From NCBI RefSeq assembly GCF_002155915.1, contig NZ_MUME01000126.1:156-64155 (forward strand): a DNA stretch of 64,000 nt, in the 5' to 3' direction. Position numbers and translations under genes: made by a program. Below, in pieces: positions 8,001 to 64,000 of the stretch (positions are counted from its first letter, which is position 1; each line of letters opens with the position of its first letter). This stretch comes from Streptomyces thermovulgaris. Lineage in GTDB: Bacteria; Actinomycetota; Actinomycetes; Streptomycetales; Streptomycetaceae. The notes below the pieces were generated by a model. It did no database searches. It was not told where the DNA came from and was given only the letters and a program-made list of their open reading frames with translations.

Positions 8001-9059
8001 CCGGTCTTCCGCTCCCGCCGCGACGCTGAGATCACCCTCGGCATCTACCGCCGCGTCCCGGTCCTCATCAAGGAGAGTGATCCCAAGGGCAACCCGTGGA
8101 ACGTGTCGTTCATGACGATGTTCCACATGTCCAACGACTCGCACCTCTTCCGTGCCCGTGAGGAGCTGGAGAGCGACGGCTGGCAATTGGTGGGCAACGT
8201 CTTCACGAAGGCGGGGGCTCAGATGCTGCCGCTGTACGAGGCAAAGATGCTCCACCATTACGACCACCGCTGGGCTACCTATGATAGAGATGGGTCCACG
8301 CGCGACTTGTCTTTGGAGGAGAAAAAGGACGCGAGAGCTGTGGTGCTGCCTCGCTATTGGGTACCTGAACAAGAAGCGAGCAATACCACAGCAGCCAAGG
8401 GGTGGGCGAGAGACTGGTTCATCGGATTCCGGAAGATTTGTCGCGCTACCGATGAGCGAACAGTTATCACTTACGCTTTCCCTAAGGGAGGGCTTGGCGA
8501 CTCCGGCAACATTCTCATGCCTACCATAAGCAGTTCCCCTGAGCTCTTGTACGCAAACACGACCGCTTTGGTCCTGGACTACATACTGCGTCAAAAACTT
8601 GGCGGCACCAACCTAAACTTCTTCCAATTCGAACAGCTACCTTTCCTCACTCCCATAGCAATCCACCCGCACGCTAAGTTTATCGATAGGCGCGTCTTGG
8701 AACTGACTTATACCACCAACGACATGCGTTCTTTCGCCGCTGACCTCGGCGATAACGGCATGCCTTTCCGTTGGGATGAGGTCCGTCGCCAAATCATCCG
8801 CGCTGAGCTGGATGCTCTCTTCTTCCATCTTTACGGCGTCTCCCGTGATGACGTCGACTACATCCTCGATACCTTCCCTATCGCCAAACGTAAGGACGAG
8901 GCTAAGTACGGCACCTACCGCACCAAGGAGCTGATTCTGGCCGAGTACGACCGCATGGCCGCAGCCGGCGTCAGCCTGGAGAACCCGTTGGTGGACGGCG
9001 AGAACTACACCTCCACCCTCACCCCACCTCCGGGCCACGGCCCCCGACACCCCGCCTGA
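5037..9059 (+). CDS. drmMI: Eco57I-type N6-adenine methylase, DrmMI-like
   Basis: 1340 residues, matching the large adenine methylases of class 1 DISARM and BREX PglX. The SAM-binding motif I (CDPACGSGHFL) is near residue 517 and the catalytic motif IV (NPPWERI) near 793. An N-terminal half of about 450 helical residues precedes the methylase core, and a target-recognition region follows. In DISARM the methylase marks host DNA so that unmarked phage DNA is attacked. The start overlaps the drmD-like stop by one base. Base composition is clearly more AT-rich from about 8250 to 8900, covering the probable recognition domain, which suggests replacement of that part by recombination. Confidence 0.75.
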   Translation: MSATTRHQVFTAVHTVGGLLPADMLLRISEGKDVPGSKPADYGLPSSRSVRDEAERSWEYLKPLWRELRKHLPEGRETGLPATDPTGRAATDWLAPLWQELGFGRLTPIGTEGVRADSDAEKRFEVSHRWQHALIHQTPWNTDLDKRPGGAGTVPPQSMLQECLNRTEAHLWGILTNGRQIRLLRDSSALATASYVEFDLEAIFDGELFSEFVLLYRLLHVSRFEVAEDAAPSTCWLEKWRTEAIAQGTRALDQLRKGVQRAITILGTGFLKHPDNRELRETLDVKTFHYALLRLVYRLLFLFVAEDREVLLSPSADETAKKRYATYFSSARLRRHAQRRRGTVHGDLYQALRLVLSGLGNDDGLPELGLPGLGGIFDDTEADKVLHGLSLSNEPLLEAVRALSIVRDTSSKRNRVVDYRHLDAEELGSIYESLLELVPKHNATERTFELVELAGNARKTTGSYYTPSSLIECLLDSTLDPVIDDAVKRGEIRATRSGQPDPRPAIVEELLNLTVCDPACGSGHFLVAAARRIAKRVAAVREQNPEPTIDAVRHALHEVVARCIYGVDLNPMAVELAKVSLWLEAMEPGKPLGFLDAHIKHGNALIGATPALLAKGIPDDAFKPIEGDDKKIATAIRKRNAKERGGQLSFHTEERIWISNASFAASLRDITAAPANTLRDVRLQSSRFRDLEQSADYLRALHIADAWCAAFVWPKVQGAPTPVTEGVFRDLQSAGAGIPVSTNEEIIRLAQQYKFFHWHLEFPEVFTVSETADDDVDPSTGWAGGFSCVLGNPPWERIKLQEQEFFAQRDAEIANAPNAAARKRLIAALPETNPDLFAEFIAAKRKAEGESQFLRSSLRYPLTGRGDINTYAVFAETDRMMTGPHGRMGVIVPTGIATDATTQFFFKELVQNASIAALYDFENAAPLFPGVHRSFKFSILSLTGRGLREPFARFAFFLHNPTELDDADKVFTLTPEEITLLNPNTGTCPVFRSRRDAEITLGIYRRVPVLIKESDPKGNPWNVSFMTMFHMSNDSHLFRAREELESDGWQLVGNVFTKAGAQMLPLYEAKMLHHYDHRWATYDRDGSTRDLSLEEKKDARAVVLPRYWVPEQEASNTTAAKGWARDWFIGFRKICRATDERTVITYAFPKGGLGDSGNILMPTISSSPELLYANTTALVLDYILRQKLGGTNLNFFQFEQLPFLTPIAIHPHAKFIDRRVLELTYTTNDMRSFAADLGDNGMPFRWDEVRRQIIRAELDALFFHLYGVSRDDVDYILDTFPIAKRKDEAKYGTYRTKELILAEYDRMAAAGVSLENPLVDGENYTSTLTPPPGHGPRHPA

Positions 9060-9092
9060 CAGCTCGCCCCAGAGACAGGAGCACCAGGGACC

Positions 9093-10235
9093 ATGAGTAG
9101 CCCTCAACACCCGCAGCGCCCTGATCGGCTTCCCTCGGACTACGAACTCGAGGCATGGCGTGCCATTCAACAGTTCAAGGGGCGCCCACTGTCACGAGTG
9201 ATGAGAAACGCCGGCGAGCAAGTGGCCAACGGCGTCGCGGAACTCGGCAAGCGTGCCGCGAAGCACCTGGAGAACCACCCACGGGCCCAATCGGCGGTTT
9301 CACGCGGACAAGAATTCGTTGCCAAGGGCGCTCATAAGGTCAGCGCCAAGGCTCGCGAAGCCGCCGACGCCCTGCCGGAGTGGAGCGGCACTGCCGTGCA
9401 ATCCGTACGGCGGACGCTGGGACGGGTCTCACGAGCGGGGCTCTCCTCCAAGCGGGTGGTGGCGCTCCACAAAAAACGCGGGCACGACGTCGCATCACTC
9501 TCCGATCTGCGCCGCCTCGACCTCGAACAGGTCGACGCGGTCCGCGGACGGGCGGCGAGCTGGTACTTCCCGGCCGCCGCGGCGCTCTCGGGAGCCGGTG
9601 CGGGACTTATGATCTCCGGAGGACAACTCGCCATCGCCGCCTCCGCCGGCGCGGCGGCGGCACCTTCGGGAGGTGCGATCACCGGCGCCTTTGTCGCCGA
9701 TGCCGCGTTCGTCCTCGGACTCGCGTCCCGCGCCGTCGGCCAGGTCTCGCTGTTCTACGGCTACGACCCCGAAGAGCCTGCCGAGAAGCTCTTCGTGATG
9801 TCTGTCGTCAACGTCGGAACGGCAAGTTCGGCCGCCGCCAAGAACGCCGCGATGGCCGACATCTCGCGGCTCACCCAAGCGCTCTTCCGCGGCAAGACGT
9901 GGGAGGTCCTGAACGAGACGGTTGTCGCCAAGGTCTCCTCACAGTTCGCGAAGGCGTTCGGCTTTCGTCTCACCAAGAAGGGCCTTGGCAAGGCCGTACC
10001 GGCATTGGGGATCGCCGTCGGAAGCACCCTCAACTGGGCCACCCTGGAGGGGATCGTCGATGCCGCCGAGATGGCGTATCGGCGGCGCTTCCTCCTGGAG
10101 AAGTACCCGCATCTCGCTGACGAGGAGGCATCCGCACCGTTTCCCGGCGACGACTCGAACGTACCGGACGACGCCGACGAGGAGATCAGTTTGCTCAACG
10201 AGATAGCCAAGGCGGGCGGACCCGACCTCCACTGA
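9093..10235 (+). CDS. EcsC family protein
   Basis: 380 residues starting 33 bp after the methylase. The N-terminal 130 residues are helical and charged. A glycine/alanine-rich hydrophobic stretch follows (about residues 160-225), then the YGYDPEEPAEKLFVMSVVNVGTA block that is typical of EcsC-family proteins, and a second hydrophobic helix near 305. EcsC proteins are poorly understood; the founding member is linked to the Bacillus EcsAB transporter. Direction and spacing suggest co-transcription with the DISARM-like genes, but EcsC is not a known DISARM component. It could be an accessory or a passenger. Confidence 0.7.
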   Translation: MSSPQHPQRPDRLPSDYELEAWRAIQQFKGRPLSRVMRNAGEQVANGVAELGKRAAKHLENHPRAQSAVSRGQEFVAKGAHKVSAKAREAADALPEWSGTAVQSVRRTLGRVSRAGLSSKRVVALHKKRGHDVASLSDLRRLDLEQVDAVRGRAASWYFPAAAALSGAGAGLMISGGQLAIAASAGAAAAPSGGAITGAFVADAAFVLGLASRAVGQVSLFYGYDPEEPAEKLFVMSVVNVGTASSAAAKNAAMADISRLTQALFRGKTWEVLNETVVAKVSSQFAKAFGFRLTKKGLGKAVPALGIAVGSTLNWATLEGIVDAAEMAYRRRFLLEKYPHLADEEASAPFPGDDSNVPDDADEEISLLNEIAKAGGPDLH

Positions 10236-10243
10236 TCCGATGT

Positions 10244-10276
10244 CCCGGCGGTCTCCGCAGGTGCGGAACCGCCGGG
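10244..10276. terminator. Bidirectional stem-loop terminator
   Basis: A 9-bp outer stem (CCCGGCGGT with ACCGCCGGG) encloses a second 5-bp stem (TCCGC/GCGGA) around a 4-nt loop. It lies between the convergent ends of the EcsC gene and the DUF397 gene, where a two-way terminator is expected. No U-tract follows, as is usual in actinobacteria. Confidence 0.65.
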
Positions 10277-10282
10277 TGCAAC

Positions 10283-10468
10283 TCATGCCTCCGTCACGAA
10301 CCCTATGAACCGCGACCATCCCTCACGCCCCACCGCGAAGGGCGGGCGCGTCAAGTCCTTGGAGTCCCTTACATGGATGGCCTGTTCGGTGACGGCAACC
10401 TCCACGCAGTTGTCGCCGGCCGTGCCGCTGTAACTGGACTTAAACCAGGTCAGTTGGGTGTTGCTCAT
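10283..10468 (-). CDS. DUF397 protein, partner of the adjacent XRE regulator
   Basis: 61 residues with the DUF397 pattern: WFKSSYSGTAGDNCVEVA, then VRDSKD, then FAVGREGWSRFIG. These small Streptomyces proteins are encoded next to Scr1-type XRE regulators and are thought to modulate them, as in WhiJ-like and BldB-linked gene pairs. The ATG overlaps the stop of the regulator by 4 bp (ATGA), and a GAGGAGA ribosome site lies inside the end of that gene. Confidence 0.9.
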   Translation of the reverse strand: MSNTQLTWFKSSYSGTAGDNCVEVAVTEQAIHVRDSKDLTRPPFAVGREGWSRFIGFVTEA

Positions 10469-11325
10469 AGTTCTCCTCTGATCCGCTCCAACAGGCCCAC
10501 GGAGTCGTGAGGGGCAAGGGCCTGTGCGCGGAGTGTTGCATACCTCCTGTGGAGAACAGCAGCCTGCTTCGGGTCAGTGATCAATCGACCGCTTTCCTGC
10601 CCCTCGGAGTACGCCAGGCGTTTCCCCTCCGGGGTCTCCAGCAAGGCGAGCGGACCGTCCAGCCCCGCATGGGTCACCGTGCGAGTAGGCATGATCTGCA
10701 CGGACACATTGCGGAGTCGGGCGAAGTCCAGCATGTGGTCCAACTGGTCGCGCAGTACCTGGCTCCCGCCAAGAGGCCGTTGCACGATGTGCTCCTCTAC
10801 GACGAACCTGAAGGAGGTGGTGGGCCGTTCCCGGATGAGGTTCTGCCGTTCCATACGGGCGGCCACCTGTGCCTCCATCTGTTCATCGGACAGCGGTGGG
10901 ATACGCGTCTCAAAGGCCGCGCGAGTGTACCCCTCCGACTGCAACAACCCCGGAATCAACCGGCACTCATACGTGCACAGGTTCACCGCCTTCCGCTCCA
11001 GCCTCGCCCACTGCCGGAACCACGCCGCCAGCCCCACCTCTCCCCGCGTCAGGAACCGGGCCGACCTCCGCAGCGCCCCCGTGTTGCCCAGCGCCTCCTC
11101 CGCCCGTTCCACGAACGAGTCGTCCGGCATCCGCCGTCCCAACTCCACGGACTCCACCGTGTGTTTGGAGAAGCACACCAGCTCCCCGAACTCCGCCCGG
11201 CTCAGTCCCGCGTGCTCGCGCAGCGCCTGGACGACGGCCCCGAACGTGCGCAAGCTGTCCGACAGACTCGGTTCCCGCTCGCGCTCTCCGCCCGGCACCG
11301 CCGGTTCGACGTGTTCGGTCGTCAT
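10465..11325 (-). CDS. Scr1-type helix-turn-helix regulator (XRE + DUF5753)
   Basis: 286 residues. An N-terminal XRE HTH (about residues 20-80, including REHAGLSRAEFGELVCFSKHTVESVELG) is followed by a DUF5753/Scr1 ligand-like domain (LIPGLLQSEGYTRA, then RQNLI, then EEHIVQRPLGG). The frame is open further upstream, but ATG 11325 has a perfect GGAGGT site 9 bp before it (11335-11340) and the protein begins there as in the family. It is coupled to the DUF397 gene downstream and diverges from the Gabija operon, with about 350 bp between the starts. It could regulate either neighbour; targets are unknown. Confidence 0.9.
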   Translation of the reverse strand: MTTEHVEPAVPGGEREREPSLSDSLRTFGAVVQALREHAGLSRAEFGELVCFSKHTVESVELGRRMPDDSFVERAEEALGNTGALRRSARFLTRGEVGLAAWFRQWARLERKAVNLCTYECRLIPGLLQSEGYTRAAFETRIPPLSDEQMEAQVAARMERQNLIRERPTTSFRFVVEEHIVQRPLGGSQVLRDQLDHMLDFARLRNVSVQIMPTRTVTHAGLDGPLALLETPEGKRLAYSEGQESGRLITDPKQAAVLHRRYATLRAQALAPHDSVGLLERIRGEL

Positions 11326-54210: not shown

Positions 54211-55272
54211 TCAGGTCTCCCGCTTCGGTGCGTACTCGGACTCCTCCAGACCGAAGGTCCAGGCGACGCCCTCGCGAGCGGTCCAGGTGTGCGGCGGCAC
54301 CCGCAGCCAGTACGTGCGGTGGGTGCCGTCGGGTTCCGGGGTGGAGTTGACCACCTCGACCATCACCAGCGGCTCGTCCCCCTCCAGTTCGATGCGCCAG
54401 AGCACGCCCGTCTCGTCGCGGTGCACGGGCTCGGCACCGGACTCCTTCAGGAAGCGGTCGTAGCCGTAGTGCTCCAGCATCACGCGGCGCAGCTCGGCGT
54501 TCTCCTCCTCCTGTATCCGCCGCGGGGTCAGCTCGGCGAGTTCGGCGAGGAATTCGGCGGGGACCGGCATGCCGTGCCAGGCGTACAGCGCGAAACCGTC
54601 GGGGTAGGCGAGCGCCGGTCCGTCCGAGCGGTCGAGCCGGCCCGCCTCGTCGCGGTGCAGCTCCACGGGGCGTTCACAGATGACGACGGCCTTCTCGTAG
54701 GGCCACCACCAGCCCGCGGCGCGGGCGACCGCGGTGATTCCGGCGAGTGCGTCCGCGCCGTCCTGGCCGTCGAAGGCCGCCAGCCAGGCCGCGTCGTGCT
54801 GGCCCAGGACCGCGTCGAGCAGCACGAGCCGGACGGCCTGCTCGTCGTTCTCCCCGTTCTCCTTGCCGGCCAGGGCCTCGACCACACCGGTCCGTATGCG
54901 CCCGGTCAGACCGACCGTGGTGTCCCACAGCTGAGCACCCGTCAGGGCCCAGTGCTCGGCCCAGCCGGCCGGCCCGAGCCGGTCGAGGACACGGGTGCGT
55001 GCGGCGTCCCACGGCCGGGTGCGCACCGCGTCGCGCACACTGGGGCCGGCCGTGCCCTCCGCCGTGAGCCGTGCGGCCAGGGCCGCGCCCTCGCGGGGCG
55101 AGCCCGCCCAGACGACACGCTCCGGCTCGGGCAGCCCCGCCAGCCGGTAGGCCAGGCGCACCCCCTCCTCGGCCGCCGTGCGGTCCGCGGGGCCGGTCGC
55201 CGCCGCCACCGCGCGCCACCGCGCCGTCGTCTCCTGCCGTGCCGTCTCCGCCGATGCCGTGGGTGTCGTCAC
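54211..55272 (-). CDS. DUF6745 family protein
   Basis: 353 residues. The DUF6745 pattern is clear in the second half: AGWWWPYEKAVVICERPVEL, RLDRSDGPALAYPDGFALYAWHG, then YWLRVPPHTWTAREGVAWTF. Aromatic and histidine residues are conserved, but the biochemical role is unknown. The chosen GTG at 55272 has GGAG 5 bp upstream; the open frame beyond it is a shadow of the next gene. A small gene with matching orientation lies 86 bp upstream and commonly accompanies this family. Confidence 0.75.
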   Translation of the reverse strand: MTTPTASAETARQETTARWRAVAAATGPADRTAAEEGVRLAYRLAGLPEPERVVWAGSPREGAALAARLTAEGTAGPSVRDAVRTRPWDAARTRVLDRLGPAGWAEHWALTGAQLWDTTVGLTGRIRTGVVEALAGKENGENDEQAVRLVLLDAVLGQHDAAWLAAFDGQDGADALAGITAVARAAGWWWPYEKAVVICERPVELHRDEAGRLDRSDGPALAYPDGFALYAWHGMPVPAEFLAELAELTPRRIQEEENAELRRVMLEHYGYDRFLKESGAEPVHRDETGVLWRIELEGDEPLVMVEVVNSTPEPDGTHRTYWLRVPPHTWTAREGVAWTFGLEESEYAPKRET

Positions 55273-55358: not shown

Positions 55359-55685
55359 TCAGTCCGCCACGACGCGTACCGCGCCGGGCACGTACTCCCG
55401 CTGCCGCACCACGCGGTACCAGCCCTTGGGCAGCGGAATCGCCGCGTGCTCCTCGTGCACCAGCCGTCCCCCGTCCGGAAGGTGGAGGTAGGAGGCTCCG
55501 AACGGCCCGCTCTCCCGGACCAGCTTTCCCGGGCCGATCACCGCGTGGGCGTGTCCGGTGACCTCGCCCAGAGCCAGCACCAGCCTTCCCCGTGCGTCCC
55601 TCGGCTGCTGCGGCAGCCGGTCGGTGCCCGGCGGCAGATCCGCCTCCGCCACGGGCACGATCAGGACATCCCCCTGCCGGTACAT
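55359..55685 (-). CDS. Small hypothetical partner of the DUF6745 gene
   Basis: 108 residues starting MYRQGDVLIVPV. It is a beta-rich small protein with VLALGEVTGHAHAVIGPGK and PLPKGWYRVVRQREYVPGAV. The GHAHA histidines could bind metal or lie in a cupin-like pocket, but no family was recognised beyond its frequent pairing with DUF6745. The upstream open frame is rejected because it reads through the divergent promoter region. Confidence 0.65.
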   Translation of the reverse strand: MYRQGDVLIVPVAEADLPPGTDRLPQQPRDARGRLVLALGEVTGHAHAVIGPGKLVRESGPFGASYLHLPDGGRLVHEEHAAIPLPKGWYRVVRQREYVPGAVRVVAD

Positions 55686-55917: not shown

Positions 55918-56865
55918 ATGCTCCGCTATCTGGAGGAACACGACCTGCGCGTCTTCGACTTCCCCGATCCCGAGGACCAGCAGGAGCTGCCGGAGGCGGG
56001 TGCCGTGGCCTGGCGGCTGGCCGTCGACCTCTACGGGGGCCACGAGCGCGAGAGCTTCGACAACAAGTGGAACCGCTTCCTGGACTCCGTGGATCCGGCG
56101 GGTGTCCGGGCGATCGTCGTGGGGGCGTGGGGAGAAACGTACGACAACGGCTCCGGCGGCGTCGTGCAGCATCTCGTGGATGCCCGTGACCGGCTGACCT
56201 CGCTCCGGGCCGTGTTCATCGGGGACCTGGAGCAGGAGGAGGCGGAGATCTCCTGGATCGAGCAGTCCGATGTCACCCCGGTCCTCAAGGCCTATCCGCT
56301 GCTGGAGGAGCTCGGGATCCGCGGCAGTACCGACCTGCGTTTCCCGGCGGTCCGGCACCAGCACCTGCGCACGCTCCGCTTCGAGAGCGGCGGTCTGCCC
56401 GGCGAGGTCGTGCGCGGTGTCGCCGCCAGTGAGCTCCCCGCCCTGGAGTACCTGGAGATGTGGCTCGGCGTGGAGGACTACGGCGGTGACGCGACGGTGG
56501 CCGATCTCGCACCGCTGCTCGCCCATGGCCGCTTCCCGGCGCTGCGTCATCTCGGGCTCCAGGACAGCGAGATCCAGGACGAGATCGCGGCGGCGGTCGC
56601 CTCGGCGCCGGTCGTGGCGCAGCTGAAGTCGCTGGACCTGTCCATGGGCACCCTCTCCGACACCGGCGCCGAGGCCCTGCTCAACGGCCAGCCGCTGACG
56701 CATCTCGAGCATCTGAACCTGGAGCACCACTTCCTGAGCGAGGCCATGATGGAACGGTTCCGTGCGGCCTTCGCCTCCGCCGGGACCGAGGTGAACCTGG
56801 AGGATCCGCAGGCTCCGGAGCGCTGGGGGGACGAGGAGTGGCGCTATGTCGCCGTCTCCGAGTAG
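55918..56865 (+). CDS. STM4015 family LRR-like protein
   Basis: 315 residues. The sequence is built of leucine-rich-repeat-like units (LRTLRFESGGLPG, then LEYLEMWLGVEDYGG, then LRHLGLQDSEIQD, then LEHLNLEHHFL) after an N-terminal domain with FDFPDPEDQ and AWGETYDNGSG. It matches the STM4015 family, named after a Salmonella locus. AGGAGG lies 8 bp before the ATG. It is the first gene of five overlapping or adjacent genes (STM4015 to STM4011). A binding or scaffold role is likely; the function is unknown. Confidence 0.85.
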   Translation: MLRYLEEHDLRVFDFPDPEDQQELPEAGAVAWRLAVDLYGGHERESFDNKWNRFLDSVDPAGVRAIVVGAWGETYDNGSGGVVQHLVDARDRLTSLRAVFIGDLEQEEAEISWIEQSDVTPVLKAYPLLEELGIRGSTDLRFPAVRHQHLRTLRFESGGLPGEVVRGVAASELPALEYLEMWLGVEDYGGDATVADLAPLLAHGRFPALRHLGLQDSEIQDEIAAAVASAPVVAQLKSLDLSMGTLSDTGAEALLNGQPLTHLEHLNLEHHFLSEAMMERFRAAFASAGTEVNLEDPQAPERWGDEEWRYVAVSE

Positions 56866-58120
56866 GCGGGCGCCCGGCACCGGCCTTCGGTTCGCCGTCG
56901 TCGGCAATCCCGAGAACCGGCGGACGACGATGTTCGCCGACGCCGTTCGCGCGGCGGGCCACACGGCCCCCCGCGTGCTCGCATGGCGGGACGTGCTGCG
57001 CGGACGGTACTCCTTCCGGCCCGGTGAGCTGGTGCGGATCGACTCCCCCGGCGAGAACGCCGAGGTCGACCGGATGCTGCGCGACGTCGACGAGCCCACC
57101 CGGGTCGAGGGAACGGCTGTGTGGTACCGCCGTTTCACCGCGGCGGTCCGGGAGGTGACCGCCGCGGCGCACCGTGCGGGGGCGACGACGACCGCCGACC
57201 CCGAGGACGTCGCGGTCATGTTCGACAAGCGGCGCTGCCATGCCCGGCTCGCCGCCGCGGGCGTCCCGGTCCCGGAAGCTCTGGACGGTCCGGTCACCGG
57301 CTGGGACGAGCTCCGGGAGCGGCTGAGGGCCGCCCGCATCCCGCGGGCGTTCCTCAAGCCGGCGCACGGGTCGTCGGCCTCCGGTGTGGTGGCCCTGTCG
57401 CTGGCGGGCCCCGGCCGGGTCAGGGCGACGACCTCCGTGGAGACCACGGCCGACGGCCGTCTGTACAACTCCCTCCGGGTGCGCCACTACACCTCGGAGC
57501 GCGAGGTCGCCGCCCTGGTCGACGCCCTGGTCCCGGACGGGATCCACATCGAGCGGTGGCTGCCCAAGGCCTCGCAGAACGGCCGGGCCTCCGATCTGCG
57601 GGTGGTCGTGGTCGCGGGGCGCGCCACCCATGCCGTGGTACGGACCAGCCGTCATCCCATGACGAATCTTCACCTCGGTGGCCTCCGGGGCGATCTGGAC
57701 GCGGCCCGTGAGGCGATCCGGGCCGCCGGAGGCGACTTCGCCGACGTGCTGGACGTGGCCGAGCGGGCGGCCGCGTGCTTCCCGGGCACGCTGTGCGTCG
57801 GCGTGGACGTCCTGCCGTCCACCGGATGGCGGCGCTTCGCCGTCGGGGAGGTGAACGCCTTCGGGGACCTGCTGCCCCGCCTCACCGGCCTGCCCGGCAG
57901 CGGCGCCGAGGGCCTGGACACCTACGCCGCGCAGGTCGCCGCCGCATCGGCCGCCGCATCGGCCGCCGTATCGGCCGCCGCACCGGTCTCCGTGCCGGCC
58001 CGCGCACCGGCCGCATCGACCGTCGCACCGGCCGCCGTACGGCGAGCGAAGCACACAGAACACCAGGAGCAGCAAGAACACCATGAGCACCACCAGCACT
58101 CCCACGACCCCGCCGCTTGA
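56846..58120 (+). CDS. STM4014 family ATP-grasp-like protein
   Basis: 424 residues. ATP-grasp features are visible: VMFDKRRCHARLAAAGVPVP near 125, AFLKPAHGSSASGVVAL near 170, LRVVVVAGRATHAVVRTS near 250 and VGVDVLPSTGWRRFAVGEVN near 322. Such enzymes form amide or ester bonds by way of acyl-phosphates. The start overlaps STM4015 by 20 bp, with GAGGAG 8 bp upstream. The last 75 residues are unusual: Ala-rich repeats, then a His/Gln/Glu-rich tail (EHHEHHQHSHD) that overlaps the next gene by 38 bp. The tail may bind metal or simply be drift from the overlap. Confidence 0.85.
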   Translation: MSPSPSRRAPGTGLRFAVVGNPENRRTTMFADAVRAAGHTAPRVLAWRDVLRGRYSFRPGELVRIDSPGENAEVDRMLRDVDEPTRVEGTAVWYRRFTAAVREVTAAAHRAGATTTADPEDVAVMFDKRRCHARLAAAGVPVPEALDGPVTGWDELRERLRAARIPRAFLKPAHGSSASGVVALSLAGPGRVRATTSVETTADGRLYNSLRVRHYTSEREVAALVDALVPDGIHIERWLPKASQNGRASDLRVVVVAGRATHAVVRTSRHPMTNLHLGGLRGDLDAAREAIRAAGGDFADVLDVAERAAACFPGTLCVGVDVLPSTGWRRFAVGEVNAFGDLLPRLTGLPGSGAEGLDTYAAQVAAASAAASAAVSAAAPVSVPARAPAASTVAPAAVRRAKHTEHQEQQEHHEHHQHSHDPAA

Positions 58121-58928
58121 CATGAACGAGATCGTGGGCAGCCACGACCTGCTGCTGGTCACGCTCGACACCCTCCGCTACGACGTGGCGCAGGAGCTGG
58201 CGGAGGCCGGACGCATCCCGAACCTGGCCCGGCATCTGCCCGGCGGCGTCTGGGAGCGCCGGCACGCGCCGGGCAGTTTCACCTACGCCTCCCATCAGGC
58301 GATGTTCGCGGGATTCCTGCCGACACCGGCCGAACCGGGTCCGCATCCGCGGCTCTTCGCCGCCCGGTTCGCGGGCAGCGAGACCACCACGAGCGGCACC
58401 TTCGTCTACGACACGCCCGACCTGGTCTCGGGTCTGGCCGCCGTGGGCTACCGCACCGTCTGCATCGGCGGTGTGGGCTTCTTCAACAAGCAGGGGCCGC
58501 TGGGATCCGTCCTGCCGGGACTGTTCCAGGAGAGCCACTGGGAACCGGAGTTCGGGGTGACCTCCCCCACGTCCTTCGAGGCACAGGTGGCCCGCGCGGA
58601 GCAGGTCGTCGCCGAACTCCCCCAGGAGCAGCTGCTGTTCCTCTTCGTCAATGTGTCGGCCCTGCACCAGCCCAACTGGTTCCACCTGCCCGGGGCCACC
58701 CGGGAGGCGGGCGACACACGGGCCACCCACGCCGCGGCACTGGAGTACGTGGACCGGCACATGGGCCGCCTTCTGGCCGCCGCCGGCAGCCGCCGCCCGT
58801 GCTTCGCCATCGTCTGCTCCGACCACGGCACCGCGTACGGCGAGGACGGCTACAGCGGCCACCGCATCGGCCACGAGGTCGTCTGGACCGTGCCCTACGC
58901 CCACTTCTTCGTCGACGAGGCCCGGTGA
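58083..58928 (+). CDS. STM4013/SEN3800 family sulfatase-fold hydrolase
   Basis: 281 residues with an alkaline phosphatase/sulfatase-type core: LLLVTLDTLRYDVA (first metal Asp), SFTYASHQAMF (nucleophile region) and CSDHGTAYGEDGYSGHRIGHE (metal Asp/His pairs). It is shorter than true sulfatases, and the canonical CxPxR formylglycine motif is absent, so a phosphoesterase or phosphotransferase reaction is as likely. It overlaps STM4014 by 38 bp and STM4012 by 4 bp. The family has no known substrate. Confidence 0.85.
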   Translation: MSTTSTPTTPPLDMNEIVGSHDLLLVTLDTLRYDVAQELAEAGRIPNLARHLPGGVWERRHAPGSFTYASHQAMFAGFLPTPAEPGPHPRLFAARFAGSETTTSGTFVYDTPDLVSGLAAVGYRTVCIGGVGFFNKQGPLGSVLPGLFQESHWEPEFGVTSPTSFEAQVARAEQVVAELPQEQLLFLFVNVSALHQPNWFHLPGATREAGDTRATHAAALEYVDRHMGRLLAAAGSRRPCFAIVCSDHGTAYGEDGYSGHRIGHEVVWTVPYAHFFVDEAR

Positions 58929-60337
58929 CCATGCTCACTCCCCTGCCCGCCCCCACGCACACGCCGTCCTTCGCCGAGGAGGCGGCCACGCCCGCCGTCC
59001 GCCCGTACCAGCAGTACGTGTACGCGTACCCGCACAAGACCGCCTACCGCCCGCTGCGCCGGGAGCGGGCGTCGCTGCGCGAGCTGTGGGCGGACGAGCC
59101 GAAGGACTCCCTCTCGCTCTACTTCCACATCCCCTTCTGCGAGGTCCGCTGCGGCTTCTGCAATCTCTTCACCCGGATCGGGGCGCCCGACGGCCTGACC
59201 ACCGCCTATCTGGACGCACTGGAGCGCCAGGCGACCGCGGTGCGCGAGGCACTGGGCGACGGGGCCCGGTTCACGAACGCGGCGTTCGGCGGCGGCACCC
59301 CGACCTTCCTCACGGCCGCGGAGCTGGAGCGGCTGTGCGACCTCGCCGAGCACGTCCTGGGCGCCGACCTGACCGCGATCCCCCTGTCGGTGGAGGCCTC
59401 GCCCGCCACGGCGACCGCCGACCGGCTGGCCGTGCTGGCCGCCCGGGGCACCACACGGCTGAGTCTGGGCGTGCAGAGCTTCGTCGACTCCGAGGCGCGG
59501 GCGGCCGTGCGCCCCCAGCGCCGGGCGGACGTCGAGGCGGCCCTCGCCCGGATCCGCGACGCCGGCTTTCCCGTTCTCAACATCGACCTGATCTACGGCA
59601 TCGAGGGCCAGACCGAGGAGTCCTGGCGCACCTCCCTCGACGCCGCCCTCGCCTGGCAGCCGGAGGAGCTGTACCTCTACCCGCTCTATGTGCGTCCGCT
59701 CACCGGTCTCGGCCGGCACCGCGACCGGGCGGCCGACGCGACCGGACGGGACGAGGCCGCCTGGGACGAGCAACGGCTGCGGCTGTACCGCCACGGGCGC
59801 GACCATCTGCTCGCGCGGGGCTACGAGCAGGTGTCGATGCGCATGTTCCGCCGTGCGGACGCCCCCGCCGCCGGCGGGGAGGACTACACGTGCCAGACCG
59901 ACGGCATGGTCGGCCTCGGCTGCGGCGCCCGCTCGTACACCTCCACGCTGCACTACTCCTTCGACTACGCGGTGGACATGCACCGCATACGCGGGATCGT
60001 CGACGAGTACGTCGCACGCTCCGTCGACGACTTCCGCCATGCCGACTTCGGCTGGGAGATGAACGGGGACGAGGCCCGGCGCCGCCATCTGCTGCAGTCG
60101 CTGCTGCAGGCCGAGGGCATGCCGGTCGCGGACTACCGGGCCCGTTTCGGCACCGCGCCCGAGGACGACTTCGCCGCCGAGCTGGCCCGGTTCCGCGCAC
60201 GGGGCTGGCTGGACGACTCGGCCGGCCCACAGCTGCTGCGGCTGTCCCCCGAGGGGCTGGCCCACTCCGACGCGCTGGGCCCCGAGCTGTTCTCCGCCGC
60301 CGTGCGCGCGCGCATGGCCGCGTACGAACCGAAGTGA
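58925..60337 (+). CDS. STM4012 family radical SAM protein (HemN-like)
   Basis: 470 residues. The radical SAM cluster site CEVRCGFCN (Cx3Cx2C) is near residue 79, followed by the HemN-like elements FGGGTPTFLTAAELERL and RLSLGVQSFVDSEARAAVR and DLIYGIEGQTEESW. A HemN-like C-terminal domain with GLGCGARSYTS is present. True coproporphyrinogen oxidases are close relatives, but this family is tied to the STM401x cluster and probably acts on another substrate. The GTG start overlaps the STM4013 stop (GTGA); ATG 58931 is an alternative. Confidence 0.88.
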   Translation: MTMLTPLPAPTHTPSFAEEAATPAVRPYQQYVYAYPHKTAYRPLRRERASLRELWADEPKDSLSLYFHIPFCEVRCGFCNLFTRIGAPDGLTTAYLDALERQATAVREALGDGARFTNAAFGGGTPTFLTAAELERLCDLAEHVLGADLTAIPLSVEASPATATADRLAVLAARGTTRLSLGVQSFVDSEARAAVRPQRRADVEAALARIRDAGFPVLNIDLIYGIEGQTEESWRTSLDAALAWQPEELYLYPLYVRPLTGLGRHRDRAADATGRDEAAWDEQRLRLYRHGRDHLLARGYEQVSMRMFRRADAPAAGGEDYTCQTDGMVGLGCGARSYTSTLHYSFDYAVDMHRIRGIVDEYVARSVDDFRHADFGWEMNGDEARRRHLLQSLLQAEGMPVADYRARFGTAPEDDFAAELARFRARGWLDDSAGPQLLRLSPEGLAHSDALGPELFSAAVRARMAAYEPK

Positions 60338-60358
60338 CCCGAAGCGACGGAAGACCTC

Positions 60359-61213
60359 ATGGACCTGACGATCCTCTACCGCGGCCCGCTGGCGTCGTGC
60401 GACTACGACTGCCCGTACTGCCCCTTCGCCAAGCGCCGGGACAGTCCCGCCCAGCTGGCCGCGGACCGTGCCGCGCTGGAACGTTTCGCCGCCTGGGCGG
60501 CCGCGCAGCGGGACGACCGGCTCTCGGTGCTGTTCACCCCGTGGGGCGAGGGCCTGGTGCGCTCCTGGTACCGGCGCACGCTCGTGGAGCTGAGCCGGCT
60601 GCCGCACATCCGCCGGGTGGCGATCCAGACCAATCTCAGCTGCCGTACGAACTGGCTGGACGGGGCCGACCTGGACACCCTCGCCCTGTGGTGCACCTTC
60701 CACCCCGGGCAGACGCCGTACGACCGCTTCCTGGCCAAGTGCCACGACCTGGCCGCCCGCGGCGTCCGCTACAGCGTCGGTGTCGTCGGGCTGCCGGAGC
60801 ACCTTCAGTACGCGCGCCGTCTGCGCGCCGATCTGCCCGCCCATGTGTACCTGTGGGTCAACGCCGCCGAGGGGCACGCCTACACCGACGCCGAGGCCGA
60901 CCGGTGGACCGCCCTGGACCCGCTCTTCCCGTACAGCCGCCACCCGCACCGCAGCGCCGGCCTGCCCTGCCGCACGGGAGAGTCGGTCGTCTCGGTGGAC
61001 GGGGAGGGCACGGTGCGCCGCTGTCACTTCGTCCGCACGAAGCTGGGCAACCTGTACGACGGCTCCTACCGGCGGGCCCTGCGTCCCCGCCCGTGCCCGC
61101 TGGCCGTCTGCGACTGTCACATCGGCTATGTCCACCTGGAGACGCTGCCGCTGTACGACGTGTTCGCGGGCGGTGTCCTGGAGCGGATCCCGGCCGTGCC
61201 GCCCACGGTGTGA
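60359..61213 (+). CDS. STM4011 family radical SAM protein
   Basis: 284 residues. The iron-sulfur site CDYDCPYCPF (Cx3Cx2C) is at residues 16-23. FTPWGEGLVRSWYRR and RRVAIQTNLSC follow the usual barrel order. C-terminal cysteines (CRTGESVVSVDGEGTVRRC and CPLAVCDCHIGY) suggest a SPASM-like auxiliary cluster. It is 21 bp after STM4012 and ends the five-gene cluster. Its stop directly abuts the convergent LAL-like gene (TGATCA, stops on both strands). Confidence 0.87.
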   Translation: MDLTILYRGPLASCDYDCPYCPFAKRRDSPAQLAADRAALERFAAWAAAQRDDRLSVLFTPWGEGLVRSWYRRTLVELSRLPHIRRVAIQTNLSCRTNWLDGADLDTLALWCTFHPGQTPYDRFLAKCHDLAARGVRYSVGVVGLPEHLQYARRLRADLPAHVYLWVNAAEGHAYTDAEADRWTALDPLFPYSRHPHRSAGLPCRTGESVVSVDGEGTVRRCHFVRTKLGNLYDGSYRRALRPRPCPLAVCDCHIGYVHLETLPLYDVFAGGVLERIPAVPPTV

Positions 61214-63946
61214 TCACGGCCGGCTCGGCTCCGCGGTGTTCGCCCCGCGCTGCGCCGAGGGGCGGCTGCCGTGGGGCCGGGCTGTCGTTGCTGTCATTCC
61301 CGCTCTCTCCGCGCGGCCTCGTTCGGCGAGGTGACCGGCGCCGCACCGGTCCGCCAGCTCGATGCCCTCGGTCAGAAGCCCGGCCGCCCTGTCGGTGCGG
61401 CCGGTGCGGCCGAGCTCCGCACCGAGTTCGATCAGCGCCTCGGCGTACAGGTGCCGGCTGGGAGAGCGGCGCAGTGTCTCCACCGCGCGCTCCCGCAGCG
61501 GCAGCGCCTGCCCGGCCTCGGCCACCGCCGCGCTGAAGCCCAGTGCCTCGCCGATGGCGGTGGGCGTGCCGAAGCGCTCCGCCCGGCGCAGCATCCTCGC
61601 CGTGAGGGCGCGGGCGCGCCGGGGATCCTCCTCGGCGACGGCGAGGGCGAGGTGTCCGGCCCAGGGGCACCAGGTCGGGTTGTGCACGCCCTTGGCCTCC
61701 AGCCGCTCCCCGGCGGCGGCGAGCTGGGCCTCGGCCTCCCTGCGCAGGCCGTGGGCGAGAAGCAGCCGTCCGTAGACGGTCTGGGCGTCCGGGAAGACCA
61801 CCGCGTTCGGGTAGGGGGGTGCGAAGTCGTACGTCCGGGCGACGCGCAGTGCCTCCTGTGGGCGTCCCCGGGACAGCAGGACGTCCACCAGCAGCCCCAC
61901 GGCGTACCAGCGGGCGGGCACCCGGTCGCCCACCCGCTCGGCCAGGCGCACTCCCTCACGTGCGCACCGCTCCGCCTCGGCGAGCTTCCCCGTCCGCAGC
62001 CGGACCAGACCGAGGAGGGTGAAACCGAAGGAGAGGTGGGCGCCGCCCCAGCCGACCTTCTCGCACTCCTCGACGGCCGAGCCGAACAGCTCCTCCGCAC
62101 GGTCGCACTCGTCGGCGTACATGTAGGCGAGCGCGGTCAGGCTCGGCAGTTCGAAGCCCCAGTCCGGGTCGGTGTAGCTCAGGCCCACGGCGCGGGCGGC
62201 GACGGCCGGCATGTCCGCGGCCGGCTCCCCGCGCAGGGTCGCGTCCCAGGCGCGGAGGCACCGCAGGGCCCGTTCTCCGGTGGTGTCCCCGGGCAGCTGC
62301 CCGACGAGCCGTGCGAGCCGGCGGGAGCGGTCGGACGCCTGCGTCTCGTGCGCGTCGAAGGTCAGCCACAGGTAGTGCGCCGTCTGCAGACGCAGCCGCG
62401 CCCGGGGGCACTCCGCCCGGGCGGCCTCGGCACCGGCGACGGCGGCCGCCTTGCCGAGTTCGTCGTTGTGGGCGAAGGCCTGGGCCAGCCGGAAGGTGGC
62501 GTTCTCCCTGAGTTCGGGGCTCAGGAAGGGCTGCTCCAGGGCCGCGGTGAGGTGGTTGACCGTGGTGGCGGGGGCGGTGAGCAGGGCGGAGCAGCCGAGT
62601 TCGTGGAGCACGTCCGCGCGGTCCTCGGGCGCCGGCGGTTCGCGCAGCGCGCGTTCCAGGCAGCGCCGGGCGGCGTCGGGCGCGCCCAGACGGAGGTTCT
62701 CGCGGGCGGCGGCGCGCAGTTGCCGGACGGTGTGCGGGTCGCCCTCGGGGTGGGTCTCGAGCAGGTGCCGGGCGGCGGCAGTGATGCCCAGGCCGGCGTC
62801 GGCCACCGCCCAGGCGGCCTGTCCGTGCAGCGCGGTGCGCGTGGCCGGCGGGATGGCCTGGTACACGGCGGTGGCGATGAGGGGGTGGACGAACTCGAGG
62901 GTCCGGGTGCCGGTGAGGATGCGGGCGACACGCAGCCGGTCCACGGCGCTCAGGGCCTCGGCCGGCGGTAATCCGGCCACGGTCGCGGCGAGGTCCGCGG
63001 AGATCTCGGTGCCGAGCACCGCGGCGGCCCAGGCGAGCCGGACGCTGGCGTGGCCGAGCCGCTCCAGCCGTTTGACCAGTCCGGTGCCCCGTGCGCTCGC
63101 CCCGAGTTCCCTCAGCAGGGAGGCCGACTCCGCGTCCGGGGCGAGGCCCCGGTCCTGGACCTTGGCGACGAGTTCGACGGTCTCGTAGGGGTTGCCGCCG
63201 GTGACCACCCAGCACTCGTGGCAGAAGACGTCGTCGGCCTCCGCTCCGAGCGAGCCGCGCACCAGGTCGGCCACCGCCTCCGGGCTGAGGGCGTGCAGCG
63301 GGATCGGGCGGGTGCTGCGGCCCTCGACCAGTTCGCGGAACTCCACGGCCCCGTCGGGCAGTTCGTCCGGGCGGTAGCCGAGGACCACCAGCACGGGGAG
63401 CTCCCGTGCCCGCACCGCGAAGGCGGCGAGCCAGGCGAGCGACTCCAGGTCTCCCCAGTGGGCGTCGTCGAGGACGATCACGACCGGCGCCCGGCGCACG
63501 GCGATCTGGGTGACGACCCAGTCCAGGCCGTCCCTGACGCCCTGGGGGTCCGGGACGGGGGCGCCGGTCTGCTGCGCGAACAGGCCGACGGCGGGACCGG
63601 CGATCTCGTACCACCCGCCGAAGATCTCACGGCGCTCGGCCTCGGTGCAGGACGCGAGGACGGGCTGCAGCAACTGGCGTACGACGTGGAAGGGGACGGT
63701 GTGCTCCTGCTCGCTGCCGCGGGCGAACAGCACGGTGCAGCCGCGGGCGGTGGCCATGCGCCGGACCTCGGCCAGCACGGTCGTCTTGCCCAGCCCGGCG
63801 GCCGCGCTGTAGAACAGCAGCCCGCCCTGCCGGTCCTCGCCGTCCTCGTCGCCCGCGCAGAGCCGGTCCACCGCGATCCGTGCGGCGGTCACCTCGTTCT
63901 CGCGCTCGTACAGGAGGGGTTTTCCCCGTCGATCGTGTCCGCCCAC
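61214..63946 (-). CDS. LAL-type AAA ATPase regulator lacking the LuxR domain
   Basis: 910 residues. The N-terminal ATPase has AAAGLGKTTVL near residue 50 and Walker B VVIVLDDAHWGD near 160. A long helical TPR-like region follows, as in LAL (large ATP-binding LuxR) regulators. The C-terminal LuxR helix-turn-helix expected after RAERAG is missing; the protein ends in a short Ser/Pro/Arg tail at the convergent gene. The first glycine of Walker A is alanine. GTG 63946 has GGGGAGGG upstream and is preferred to 63982. It may be a truncated, non-DNA-binding regulator. Confidence 0.8.
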   Translation of the reverse strand: MGGHDRRGKPLLYERENEVTAARIAVDRLCAGDEDGEDRQGGLLFYSAAAGLGKTTVLAEVRRMATARGCTVLFARGSEQEHTVPFHVVRQLLQPVLASCTEAERREIFGGWYEIAGPAVGLFAQQTGAPVPDPQGVRDGLDWVVTQIAVRRAPVVIVLDDAHWGDLESLAWLAAFAVRARELPVLVVLGYRPDELPDGAVEFRELVEGRSTRPIPLHALSPEAVADLVRGSLGAEADDVFCHECWVVTGGNPYETVELVAKVQDRGLAPDAESASLLRELGASARGTGLVKRLERLGHASVRLAWAAAVLGTEISADLAATVAGLPPAEALSAVDRLRVARILTGTRTLEFVHPLIATAVYQAIPPATRTALHGQAAWAVADAGLGITAAARHLLETHPEGDPHTVRQLRAAARENLRLGAPDAARRCLERALREPPAPEDRADVLHELGCSALLTAPATTVNHLTAALEQPFLSPELRENATFRLAQAFAHNDELGKAAAVAGAEAARAECPRARLRLQTAHYLWLTFDAHETQASDRSRRLARLVGQLPGDTTGERALRCLRAWDATLRGEPAADMPAVAARAVGLSYTDPDWGFELPSLTALAYMYADECDRAEELFGSAVEECEKVGWGGAHLSFGFTLLGLVRLRTGKLAEAERCAREGVRLAERVGDRVPARWYAVGLLVDVLLSRGRPQEALRVARTYDFAPPYPNAVVFPDAQTVYGRLLLAHGLRREAEAQLAAAGERLEAKGVHNPTWCPWAGHLALAVAEEDPRRARALTARMLRRAERFGTPTAIGEALGFSAAVAEAGQALPLRERAVETLRRSPSRHLYAEALIELGAELGRTGRTDRAAGLLTEGIELADRCGAGHLAERGRAERAGMTATTARPHGSRPSAQRGANTAEPSRP

Positions 63947-64000
63947 GATGGTGGCCCTCCCCGCGCGTTGCCGTTCCGGCACGTCGTTGCCCCCCTGATC

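Follow-up and report, generated by a model that had tools for sequence, protein, structure and literature searches.

A co-inherited five-gene cluster in which the leucine-rich-repeat protein STM4015 is a possible substrate or carrier for ATP-grasp and radical SAM enzymes

The window, a 64,000-nucleotide stretch of Streptomyces DNA, carries the genes STM4015, STM4014, STM4013, STM4012 and STM4011 in that order, all on the plus strand, at positions 55918–61213. We propose, with a probability of roughly 45%, that STM4015 is the substrate or carrier of this system, that STM4014 ligates a unit onto its terminal glutamate, and that the radical SAM pair and the hydrolase finish the modification. If true, organisms from Streptomyces and Deinococcus to Salmonella and Bacteroides would use a leucine-rich-repeat (LRR) protein as the carrier or precursor in radical SAM chemistry. 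Before this analysis the five families were only co-named hypothetical proteins; naming the terminal glutamate of STM4015 and the class of the ligase makes the annotation testable by mass spectrometry.

The gene set and its surroundings

As the original prediction had it, the cluster is complete and tightly packed, with overlaps of 20 and 38 bases at the first two junctions and gaps of 2 and 21 bases at the others. The extent of the overlaps hinges on the choice of start codons, because the family models start at residue 16 of STM4014 and residue 14 of STM4013. Family calls were made with the curated NCBIfam cut-offs, which all five proteins exceeded. The families are indeed named solely by Salmonella locus tags, and the literature search, whose sources were available in part, returned no paper on their function; single locus tags appear in tables, as in PMC3844500 and PMC2784778.

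The data support a five-gene system that is co-inherited. A lack of co-occurrence beyond chance had been set beforehand as an outcome that would overturn the prediction. In a search covering STM4011, STM4014 and STM4015 in 296 genomes sampled from the phylum, the 6 with STM4011 over its cut-off are also the 6 with STM4014 and the 6 with STM4015. All five genes were present in 75 of the 80 loci fetched, which are actinobacterial throughout, and a contig end cuts four of the remaining five. Among the 13 plasmid loci bearing STM4011, 12 were opened (H13, a second Salmonella record, was left out), and 11 of these have the five genes in the same order. Incomplete sets were seen at locus L057, which is without STM4015, STM4013 and STM4012, and on the Bacteroides plasmid L014, where most of STM4013 and STM4012 is gone. 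Among the matches listed, at least one viral contig (L102) encodes a distant STM4011-like protein (22% identity). In E. coli, a megablast search with the Salmonella stretch, which diverged copies could escape, gave matches somewhere along the stretch in 94 of 5426 genomes and matches over 80% of it in none (0/5426); in the best 10 of the 94 matching genomes the alignment was confined to the HAD gene. PADLOC defence models gave a partial match of STM4012 residues 166–265 to PDC-M51A (28 bits, E 2.2e-7) and no match for STM4015, STM4014, STM4013 or STM4011.

It had been suggested that a comparison of neighbourhoods might reveal an invariant sixth gene or a precursor peptide. Two genes do recur. 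A DUF6745 protein (54211–55269, minus strand; PF20530, 389 bits) and a divergently encoded protein of 108 residues with a conserved His/Glu motif (55359–55685, minus strand) are candidate sixth and seventh genes; the pair, with the small protein at ~108 residues, adjoins the cluster in 59 of 73 actinobacterial loci. It also occurs on 7 of the 13 STM4011 plasmids, and three arrangements of the pair were seen; of the 9 plasmids that encode the small protein, 7 carry STM4011 as well. Neither gene is invariant, however: the pair is missing from 14 of the 73 loci and from the Salmonella, Paenibacillus, Bacteroides and two Embleya loci that were opened, which rules out an invariant sixth gene in this pair. 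It is found without an adjoining cluster in Microcystis phage LMM01, Deinococcus ficus and Skermanella. By eye, the N-terminus of the Deinococcus DUF6745 proteins looks LRR-like.

None of the 14 commonest other neighbour families (ORFs of at least 80 residues) occurs in more than 30 of the 80 loci. Their median offset of 5.7–10.9 kb from the first cluster gene places them downstream of STM4011, and they are taken for chromosomal surroundings rather than parts of the cluster. Pfam searches with 10 chosen neighbours, 8 of them among these 14, identified a tyrosine phosphatase, a GDSL lipase, an aminotransferase, an M23 peptidase, a radical SAM/DUF3463 protein and regulators; the other three, possibly antisense ORFs, gave no match. 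An Aminotran_3 neighbour lies several kb away at some loci. The M23 peptidase, found downstream in up to 26 of 80 loci, was the only peptidase seen.

A short precursor was sought among 491 ORFs of 20–79 residues lying outside known genes and within 1 kb of the cluster (blastp, E 1e-4; very short or fast-changing peptides could escape this comparison). The commonest family occurs in 11 of 80 loci, so that no separate short precursor recurs within this comparison. The earlier observation that no precursor gene was seen stands in this sense; it must be qualified in another, since STM4015 itself looks like a precursor or carrier on account of its conserved C-terminal tail.

The C-terminal tail of STM4015

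STM4015 (55918–56865; NF038076, 408 bits, cut-off 275) is an LRR protein of 315 residues in the window and ends in RYVAVSE, encoded at 56842–56862 with the glutamate codon immediately 5' of the stop. Its solved homologue is 2ra8 from B. fragilis (Q64V53; E 7.2e-107), on which the STM4015 model superimposes with Z 31.8 and an rmsd of 2.7 over 282 residues; neither 2RA8 nor Q64V53 was among the matches listed by the literature search.

A terminal glutamate is present in 113 of 114 complete STM4015 ORFs, drawn from five phyla plus one cyanobacterial copy. The single exception is the second STM4015 ORF of locus L052, which is without the tail; the STM4014 reading of that locus also breaks. The consensus is an acidic stretch followed by R-[YF]-[VT]-[AS]-V-[GAST]-E and the stop, or more loosely R-[YF]-x-x-x-x-E. 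In a thinned set of 80 drawn from the 113 Glu-ending ORFs, the L052 miss thus being left out, R stands at −7 in 77 and Y or F at −6 in 78. At −13 to −30 of the same 80 the commonest residue at each position reaches only 21–42%, a figure lowered in itself by counting positions gap-free from the end. The R at −7 is missing in Salmonella, Bacteroides and 2ra8.

A DNA search for the tail in 10 whole genomes gave 8 matches, all of them STM4015 gene ends and representing 8 of the 9 copies known in six of those genomes; the four congeners without the cluster gave none, and the reversed pattern gave one. Nor is the tail an artefact of gene overlap, because Glu is the last residue in 53 of 54 copies for which any overlap with the following gene is limited to 3 bases, and both Glu codons occur (GAG 81, GAA 30; n=112). 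Reading-frame overlap is therefore ruled out as its cause. A conserved last residue is found elsewhere too: the small neighbouring protein ends in Asp in 9 of 9 diverse copies, even without a nearby cluster, and DUF6745 ends in Thr in 98% of actinobacterial copies, with Ala or Ser in several others. Among other neighbour families, 2 of 22 have one last residue in at least 95% of copies.

STM4015 is also the only cluster gene found duplicated, with a second copy in 23 of 80 loci. Distant extra copies retain the tail, as in G161 (~100 kb off), S. cadmiisoli, two Embleya and a Calothrix plasmid. Except for Calothrix, of which one plasmid was examined, no STM4015 was found without the enzymes. The Bacteroides protein has an additional N-terminal part. 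The structural model does not show a clearly flexible tail, with pLDDT 89 at residues 301–310 and 73 at 311–315, and the alignment to 2ra8 extends through model residue 315.

Enzyme classes and a proposed mechanism

STM4014 (56846–58120; NF038074, 461 bits, cut-off 175) is assigned by sequence to the ATP-grasp ligases, whose characteristic residues are retained across the alignment; its placement in the LysX/ArgX/RimK group relies on fold and a weak profile match. The best matches of its model (Foldseek, VIA) were 5k2m, 3vpb, 3vpd, PsnB and RimK. LysX/ArgX and RimK proteins fill the first eight VIA rows (Z 23.5–24.6; RimK 23.5–24.2), and small-molecule ligases also match, namely glutathione synthetase (Z 22.2) and DcsG (21.9), so that protein-directed ligases outrank small-molecule ones by about 1–2 Z. 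STM4014 is not LysX itself, as it scores 25.9 bits against the LysX_arch cut-off of 275.6. It also has no alternative LysW partner in the window's genome, since TIGR01206 gave no matches there in a search that was positive in Thermus and others.

STM4013 (58083–58928; NF038075, 433 bits, cut-off 250) is a hydrolase of the alkaline-phosphatase superfamily. Sulfatase (PF00884) was the sole Pfam match over its cut-off (37 bits, cut-off 25), in keeping with the original call of a sulfatase-fold enzyme of phospho or sulfo transfer. The closer assignment differs. Thr67, D29, D247, H248, H260 and H264 are each kept in 88 of 89 sequences, and because the conserved Thr stands where formylglycine sulfatases carry Cys or Ser, the enzyme looks phosphatase- or NPP-type and a formylglycine sulfatase is not expected. 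The C/S-x-P-x-R motif of formylglycine sulfatases was not found in the alignment, and Ser65, near Thr67, is variable (Ser in 81 of 89). The best PDB profile matches, over short stretches, are to the NPPs 7n1s and 2gsn, followed by NPP 7mw8 and arylsulfatase 6hhm. By inference, Thr67 is the predicted nucleophile of an NPP-like enzyme.

STM4012 (58931–60337; NF006067, 650 bits, cut-off 380) is a HemN-like radical SAM enzyme. HemN (1olt, E 1.7e-52) is its nearest solved relative, followed by the methyltransferase NocN; against the HemN model TIGR00538 it scores 133.2 bits, under the cut-off of 324.95. HemN acts on a tetrapyrrole, converting porphyrin propionates to vinyl groups. Cys321 is present in 87 of 91 aligned rows, one of which is Salmonella HemN, where the residue is Thr. 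STM4011 (60359–61213; NF038073, 419 bits, cut-off 200) is the second radical SAM enzyme and had no Pfam match. The cysteines of its CxxxCxxC motif (C14, C18, C21) are present in 90 of 91 sequences, the gap being the L014 fusion protein, which was trimmed for alignment; C204, C222, C246, C251 and C253 are present in all 91. P values attached to the residue counts in these enzyme alignments are uncorrected for kinship. These conserved cysteines, together with a weak profile match of the C-terminal part to the peptide-modifying SkfB (6efn, E 1.7e-4), suggest that the C-terminal cysteines are SPASM/twitch-like.

These classes bear out the ligation and radical chemistry of the original prediction, and a modified peptide or protein is a likely outcome, with the ligation and the chemistry themselves deduced from the classes. 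In the mechanism we favour, the LRR body of STM4015 would serve for recognition and the C-terminal tail would be the part modified. STM4014 would use ATP to activate the terminal glutamate and add an amine-bearing unit, in the manner of LysX/ArgX on LysW and RimK on S6. STM4011 and STM4012 might next alter the tail, or the unit joined to it, by radical chemistry, and STM4013 might take off or transfer a phosphate-type group. The sequences themselves show the gene set, the widely conserved tail, the extra copies of STM4015 and the enzyme classes. We infer the tail as the enzymes' target, and likewise which atom accepts the unit, what that unit is, in which order the steps follow and whether the cluster releases a product. 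A more specific version, which we regard as speculative and improbable, is that STM4014 caps the glutamate and STM4012 decarboxylates its propionate-like side chain, giving a vinylglycine-type warhead or building block; STM4011 and STM4013 would finish the product, which would either be set free or stay in place as a permanent modification of the protein end, with the DUF6745 pair as accessory or target. If true, this would be a new class of protein-scaffolded chemistry.

Alternative readings and related systems

The cluster might instead be a small-molecule pathway. Free metabolites would then be the substrates of STM4014, a cofactor or secondary metabolite would be the product of the radical SAM enzymes and the phosphatase, and STM4015 would be a scaffold whose tail docks the enzymes. 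Glutathione synthetase, DcsG and D-Ala ligases have the ATP-grasp fold as well, STM4012 is closest among solved structures to a tetrapyrrole enzyme, and small phosphodiesters are substrates of NPP-type hydrolases. On the other hand, this leaves unexplained both the obligatory glutamate at the stop codon and the multiplication of STM4015 alone, remote copies included, and the protein-directed ligases top the STM4014 ranking, albeit by the small Z margin given above; we consider it possible but rather doubtful. STM4015 could also be an enzyme-activated sensor, a regulator switched through the modification of its tail (as with RimK and S6), tied to the DUF6745 pair and with no released product. 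Consistent with this are the LRR fold, the extra N-terminal part in Bacteroides, the LRR-like N-terminus of Deinococcus DUF6745, and the failure to recognise a maturation peptidase or exporter directly adjoining the genes among the 10 neighbours scanned. Four enzymes, two of them radical SAM, are nevertheless much for a switch, and Pfam finds no DNA-binding domain in the window's STM4015, making a sensor unlikely.

Two further readings have very little probability. In anaerobic sulfatase maturation a SPASM-like radical SAM gene lies next to a sulfatase-fold gene, and with the Pfam Sulfatase match this layout could suggest that a radical SAM protein matures STM4013 by formylglycine-type activation; the Thr at the nucleophile position, with the variable Ser65 and the lack of the sulfatase motif, largely refutes this. 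A role in haem synthesis, with STM4012 as a coproporphyrinogen oxidase, would fit the nearest solved relative of STM4012, but is rejected on family scores (133 bits, where the HemN cut-off is 325, and 650 for its own family). The same scores speak against complementation of coproporphyrinogen oxidase by STM4012, the second outcome set beforehand as one that would overturn the original prediction. The Salmonella record, moreover, has an annotated hemN near the cluster, with Thr at the position of Cys321.

Modification of STM4015 by the four enzymes, the reading we prefer, can be set against several known systems. SPASM RiPP pathways such as that of SkfB resemble it in STM4011, with its CxxxCxxC motif, five C-terminal cysteines and weak SkfB match, but here no short precursor peptide was found and an LRR protein would supply the core with its tail. 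For graspetides the likeness lies in PsnB, which is among the first Foldseek rows for STM4014, whereas no short core peptide was seen and the conserved acid of STM4015 is C-terminal. PEARL pathways (3-thiaglutamate, ammosamide) likewise build on the C-terminus of a carrier polypeptide; in the partial sources available, PEARL ligases use aminoacyl-tRNA, whereas STM4014 is an ATP-grasp enzyme and STM4015 a large folded carrier. RimK shares the ATP-grasp group of STM4014 and, according to excerpts of PMC10092738, works at the C-terminus of ribosomal protein S6; the proposed target of STM4014 is non-ribosomal, and radical SAM steps are added. Of lysine or arginine pathway enzymes, none was found among the five cluster genes and three neighbours scanned. 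The LysW/LysX-ArgX system of lysine and arginine synthesis in Thermus and archaea has ligases of the same structural group, and ArgX attaches to the terminal Glu of LysW (excerpts of PMC4490483). The putative partner of STM4014 likewise ends in Glu, the known acceptor of LysW. Unlike the small LysW, however, the STM4015 carrier would be an LRR protein of ~300 residues, and its cluster adds two radical SAM enzymes and a phosphatase-type enzyme.

The five-gene cluster and its neighbours

Five genes identified with NCBIfam models, STM4015, STM4014, STM4013, STM4012 and STM4011, occupy 55918-61213 on the + strand, each far exceeding its curated cut-off; they are separated by 20- and 38-base overlaps and then by 2- and 21-base gaps. 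Directly after STM4011, and convergent to the cluster, is a gene for a 922-residue AAA ATPase/TPR protein (61214-63982). Upstream, and divergent from the cluster, are genes for a 108-residue small protein (55359-55685) and a DUF6745 protein (54211-55269). The closest loci found come from Streptomyces.

STM4011, STM4014 and STM4015 were found over cut-off in the identical six of 296 genomes sampled from the phylum. An actinobacterial set was fetched with the STM4011 profile; from 533 confirmed relatives the best 80, almost exclusively from Streptomyces, were taken, and 75 of these 80 loci have the complete five-gene set. Of the other five, three start at a contig end within STM4014, one starts within STM4012, and one, L057 (Streptomyces sp. 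NRRL S-31, 8948-10837), has only STM4014 and STM4011 with no N in between, which reflects either a deletion or an assembly fault. STM4011 is also encoded on 13 of 72,556 plasmid records, from Actinomycetota, Deinococcota, Pseudomonadota, Bacillota and Bacteroidota; in 11 of the 12 such loci inspected the five-gene set is complete, with gene order and strand unchanged. In Bacteroides finegoldii (6513-10530 of its locus), STM4013 and STM4012 are reduced to short remnants and STM4011 is, as judged by eye, fused to a C-terminal HAD-like domain; the end of Salmonella STM4011 shares bases with a Cof-type HAD gene. A plasmid-labelled Salmonella Infantis record (L013, 1-18795) carries glnALG, typA and hemN along with the cluster, the gene content one would expect on a chromosome. 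A viral-collection contig (L102, 3398-4228) encodes a distant STM4011-like protein with 22% identity, among the matches listed.

The DUF6745 gene and the small-protein gene form a pair that adjoins the cluster in 59 of the 73 actinobacterial loci (from the best 80 of 533) having 3 kb of upstream sequence. The small protein, which has conserved His/Glu residues, is on nine plasmid records, with STM4011 adjacent in seven (chance 3e-26, kinship ignored), and DUF6745 is present in 4/6 cluster genomes vs 5/290 others (Fisher 6e-6, kinship ignored). The pair is divergent and upstream in Streptomyces, convergent and downstream in Deinococcus and Nonomuraea, and co-directional and upstream in Methylobacterium. 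It also stands without the cluster beside it in Microcystis phage LMM01, Skermanella and Deinococcus ficus, and so is a separable module; on the D. ficus plasmid, VWA and glutathionylspermidine-synthase-family genes belong to the same run of genes.

The conserved end of STM4015

The last residue was Glu in all ten diverse STM4015 proteins aligned, and Glu immediately preceded the stop in 113 of 114 complete STM4015 ORFs placed by tblastn (at least 60 bits). The sole exception, the second STM4015 copy at locus L052 (5766-6705), is probably a frameshift or sequencing error; the reading of the adjacent STM4014 also breaks. A subset of 80 less similar sequences drawn from the 113 ORFs gave the consensus R-[YF]-x-x-x-x-E, with Arg at -7 in 77, Tyr/Phe at -6 in 78, Ala at -4 in 67 and Val at -3 in 69. 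Positions -13 to -30 are an acidic stretch in which the commonest residue reaches 21-42% per position, in an ungapped count from the end that itself lowers upstream values. STM4015 copies located elsewhere than in the cluster keep the tail as well: one ~100 kb off in the G161 genome, one ~24 kb off on a Streptomyces cadmiisoli plasmid, those of two Embleya replicons, and that of a cyanobacterial plasmid from Calothrix, in which STM4011 gave no match. Salmonella, Bacteroides and the solved B. fragilis relative 2ra8 lack the Arg and keep the Glu; the corresponding end in 2ra8 is SYPMITE, followed by eight residues taken for a tag.

In actinobacterial loci the commonest last residue accounts for 99% of STM4015 vs 87% of STM4012, 44% of STM4013, 38% of STM4014 and 27% of STM4011. 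A fixed end is by itself not proof, because the small protein ends in Asp (97% of actinobacterial loci, 9/9 diverse copies), DUF6745 in Thr (98% of actinobacterial copies, mixed in other groups), and two of 22 other neighbour families likewise have a fixed last residue. Across ten whole genomes the tail DNA pattern matched eight times, each at an STM4015 gene end and together covering eight of the nine copies known there; the ninth, in the G161 cluster, ends in RFVSVGE and does not fit. The reversed pattern matched once in the ten genomes, and the tail pattern had zero matches in four congeners lacking the cluster. Gene overlap as the origin of the terminal Glu was ruled out, since Glu ends 53 of 54 copies unable to overlap the following gene by more than 3 bases and both codons are used (GAG 81, GAA 30 among 112 copies).

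The encoded enzymes

Against solved chains, the STM4014 profile gave weak matches throughout: LysX ranked first, and two biotin-carboxylase-type chains and RimK came next. Its AlphaFold2 model (mean pLDDT 85.5) placed LysX/ArgX, the graspetide ligase PsnB and RimK on top in Foldseek (5k2m, E 5.6e-13). With VIA-align the top eight rows were all ArgX, LysX or RimK (Z 23.5-24.6, rmsd 2.6-2.9, 265-277 residues), followed by glutathione synthetase (Z 22.2) and DcsG (Z 21.9). The ATP-grasp residues K171, D321, E335 and N337 are present in 88, 90, 88 and 89 of 90 aligned rows, respectively.

STM4011, which has no Pfam match, contains CxxxCxxC and five invariant cysteines towards its C-terminus; in a profile search its C-terminal part matches SkfB (E 1.7e-4). 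The nearest solved relative of STM4012 is HemN (1olt, E 1.7e-52), with NocN second; its score is far under the HemN cut-off, and its Cys321 is missing from the HemN copy in the same alignment. STM4013 scores 37 bits against Pfam Sulfatase, and among solved chains its profile ranks NPP phosphodiesterases at the top, with an arylsulfatase narrowly behind. Residues Thr67, D29, D247, H248, H260 and H264 are each present in 88 of 89 rows, a set from which formylglycine chemistry is not expected.

A proposed role for STM4015

STM4015 is the only cluster gene present in more than one copy per locus (23 of the best 80 of 533). Such multiplication is what one would expect if it were a substrate, not an enzyme. 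Because it is multi-copy, has a fixed terminal Glu and accompanies a ligase of a class acting on protein ends, STM4015 is most likely a carrier or precursor. Starting from what these comparisons establish, namely the genes of the set, the tail and the class of each enzyme, we suggest that STM4014 would join a unit to the terminal Glu, that the radical SAM enzymes STM4011 and STM4012 may then alter the tail or the attached unit, and that the phosphatase-type STM4013 would complete the modification; a product may also be released. No separate short ORF recurred near the cluster; there were 491 ORFs of 20-79 residues no more than 1 kb from it, and their commonest family occurred in 11 of the best 80 of 533 loci.

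Several observations count against this proposal. The last residues of the STM4015 model are of only moderate uncertainty and its structural alignment with 2ra8 includes the tail, which may therefore be folded; small-molecule ligases have the same fold as STM4014; and no dedicated maturation peptidase was recognised among the cluster neighbours. The only recurrent peptidase seen is an M23 peptidase (e.g., L098, 11829-12917), downstream among chromosomal neighbours in at most 26 of the best 80 of 533 loci.

The five families are already known by name, and no functional description of them was found in the literature searched; what this analysis adds is a proposed residue as the substrate site, an assigned ligase class, the recognition that the putative substrate is multi-copy, and the pair of partner genes. 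In LysW, the gamma-carboxyl of the terminal Glu is where the LysX homologue ArgX attaches an amino group (PMC4490483). TIGR01206 detected no LysW in the genome containing the window and was positive in a Thermus control. In its proposed way of working the cluster is like a LysW-type carrier system, but it lacks the features of carrier and pathway by which that family is defined.
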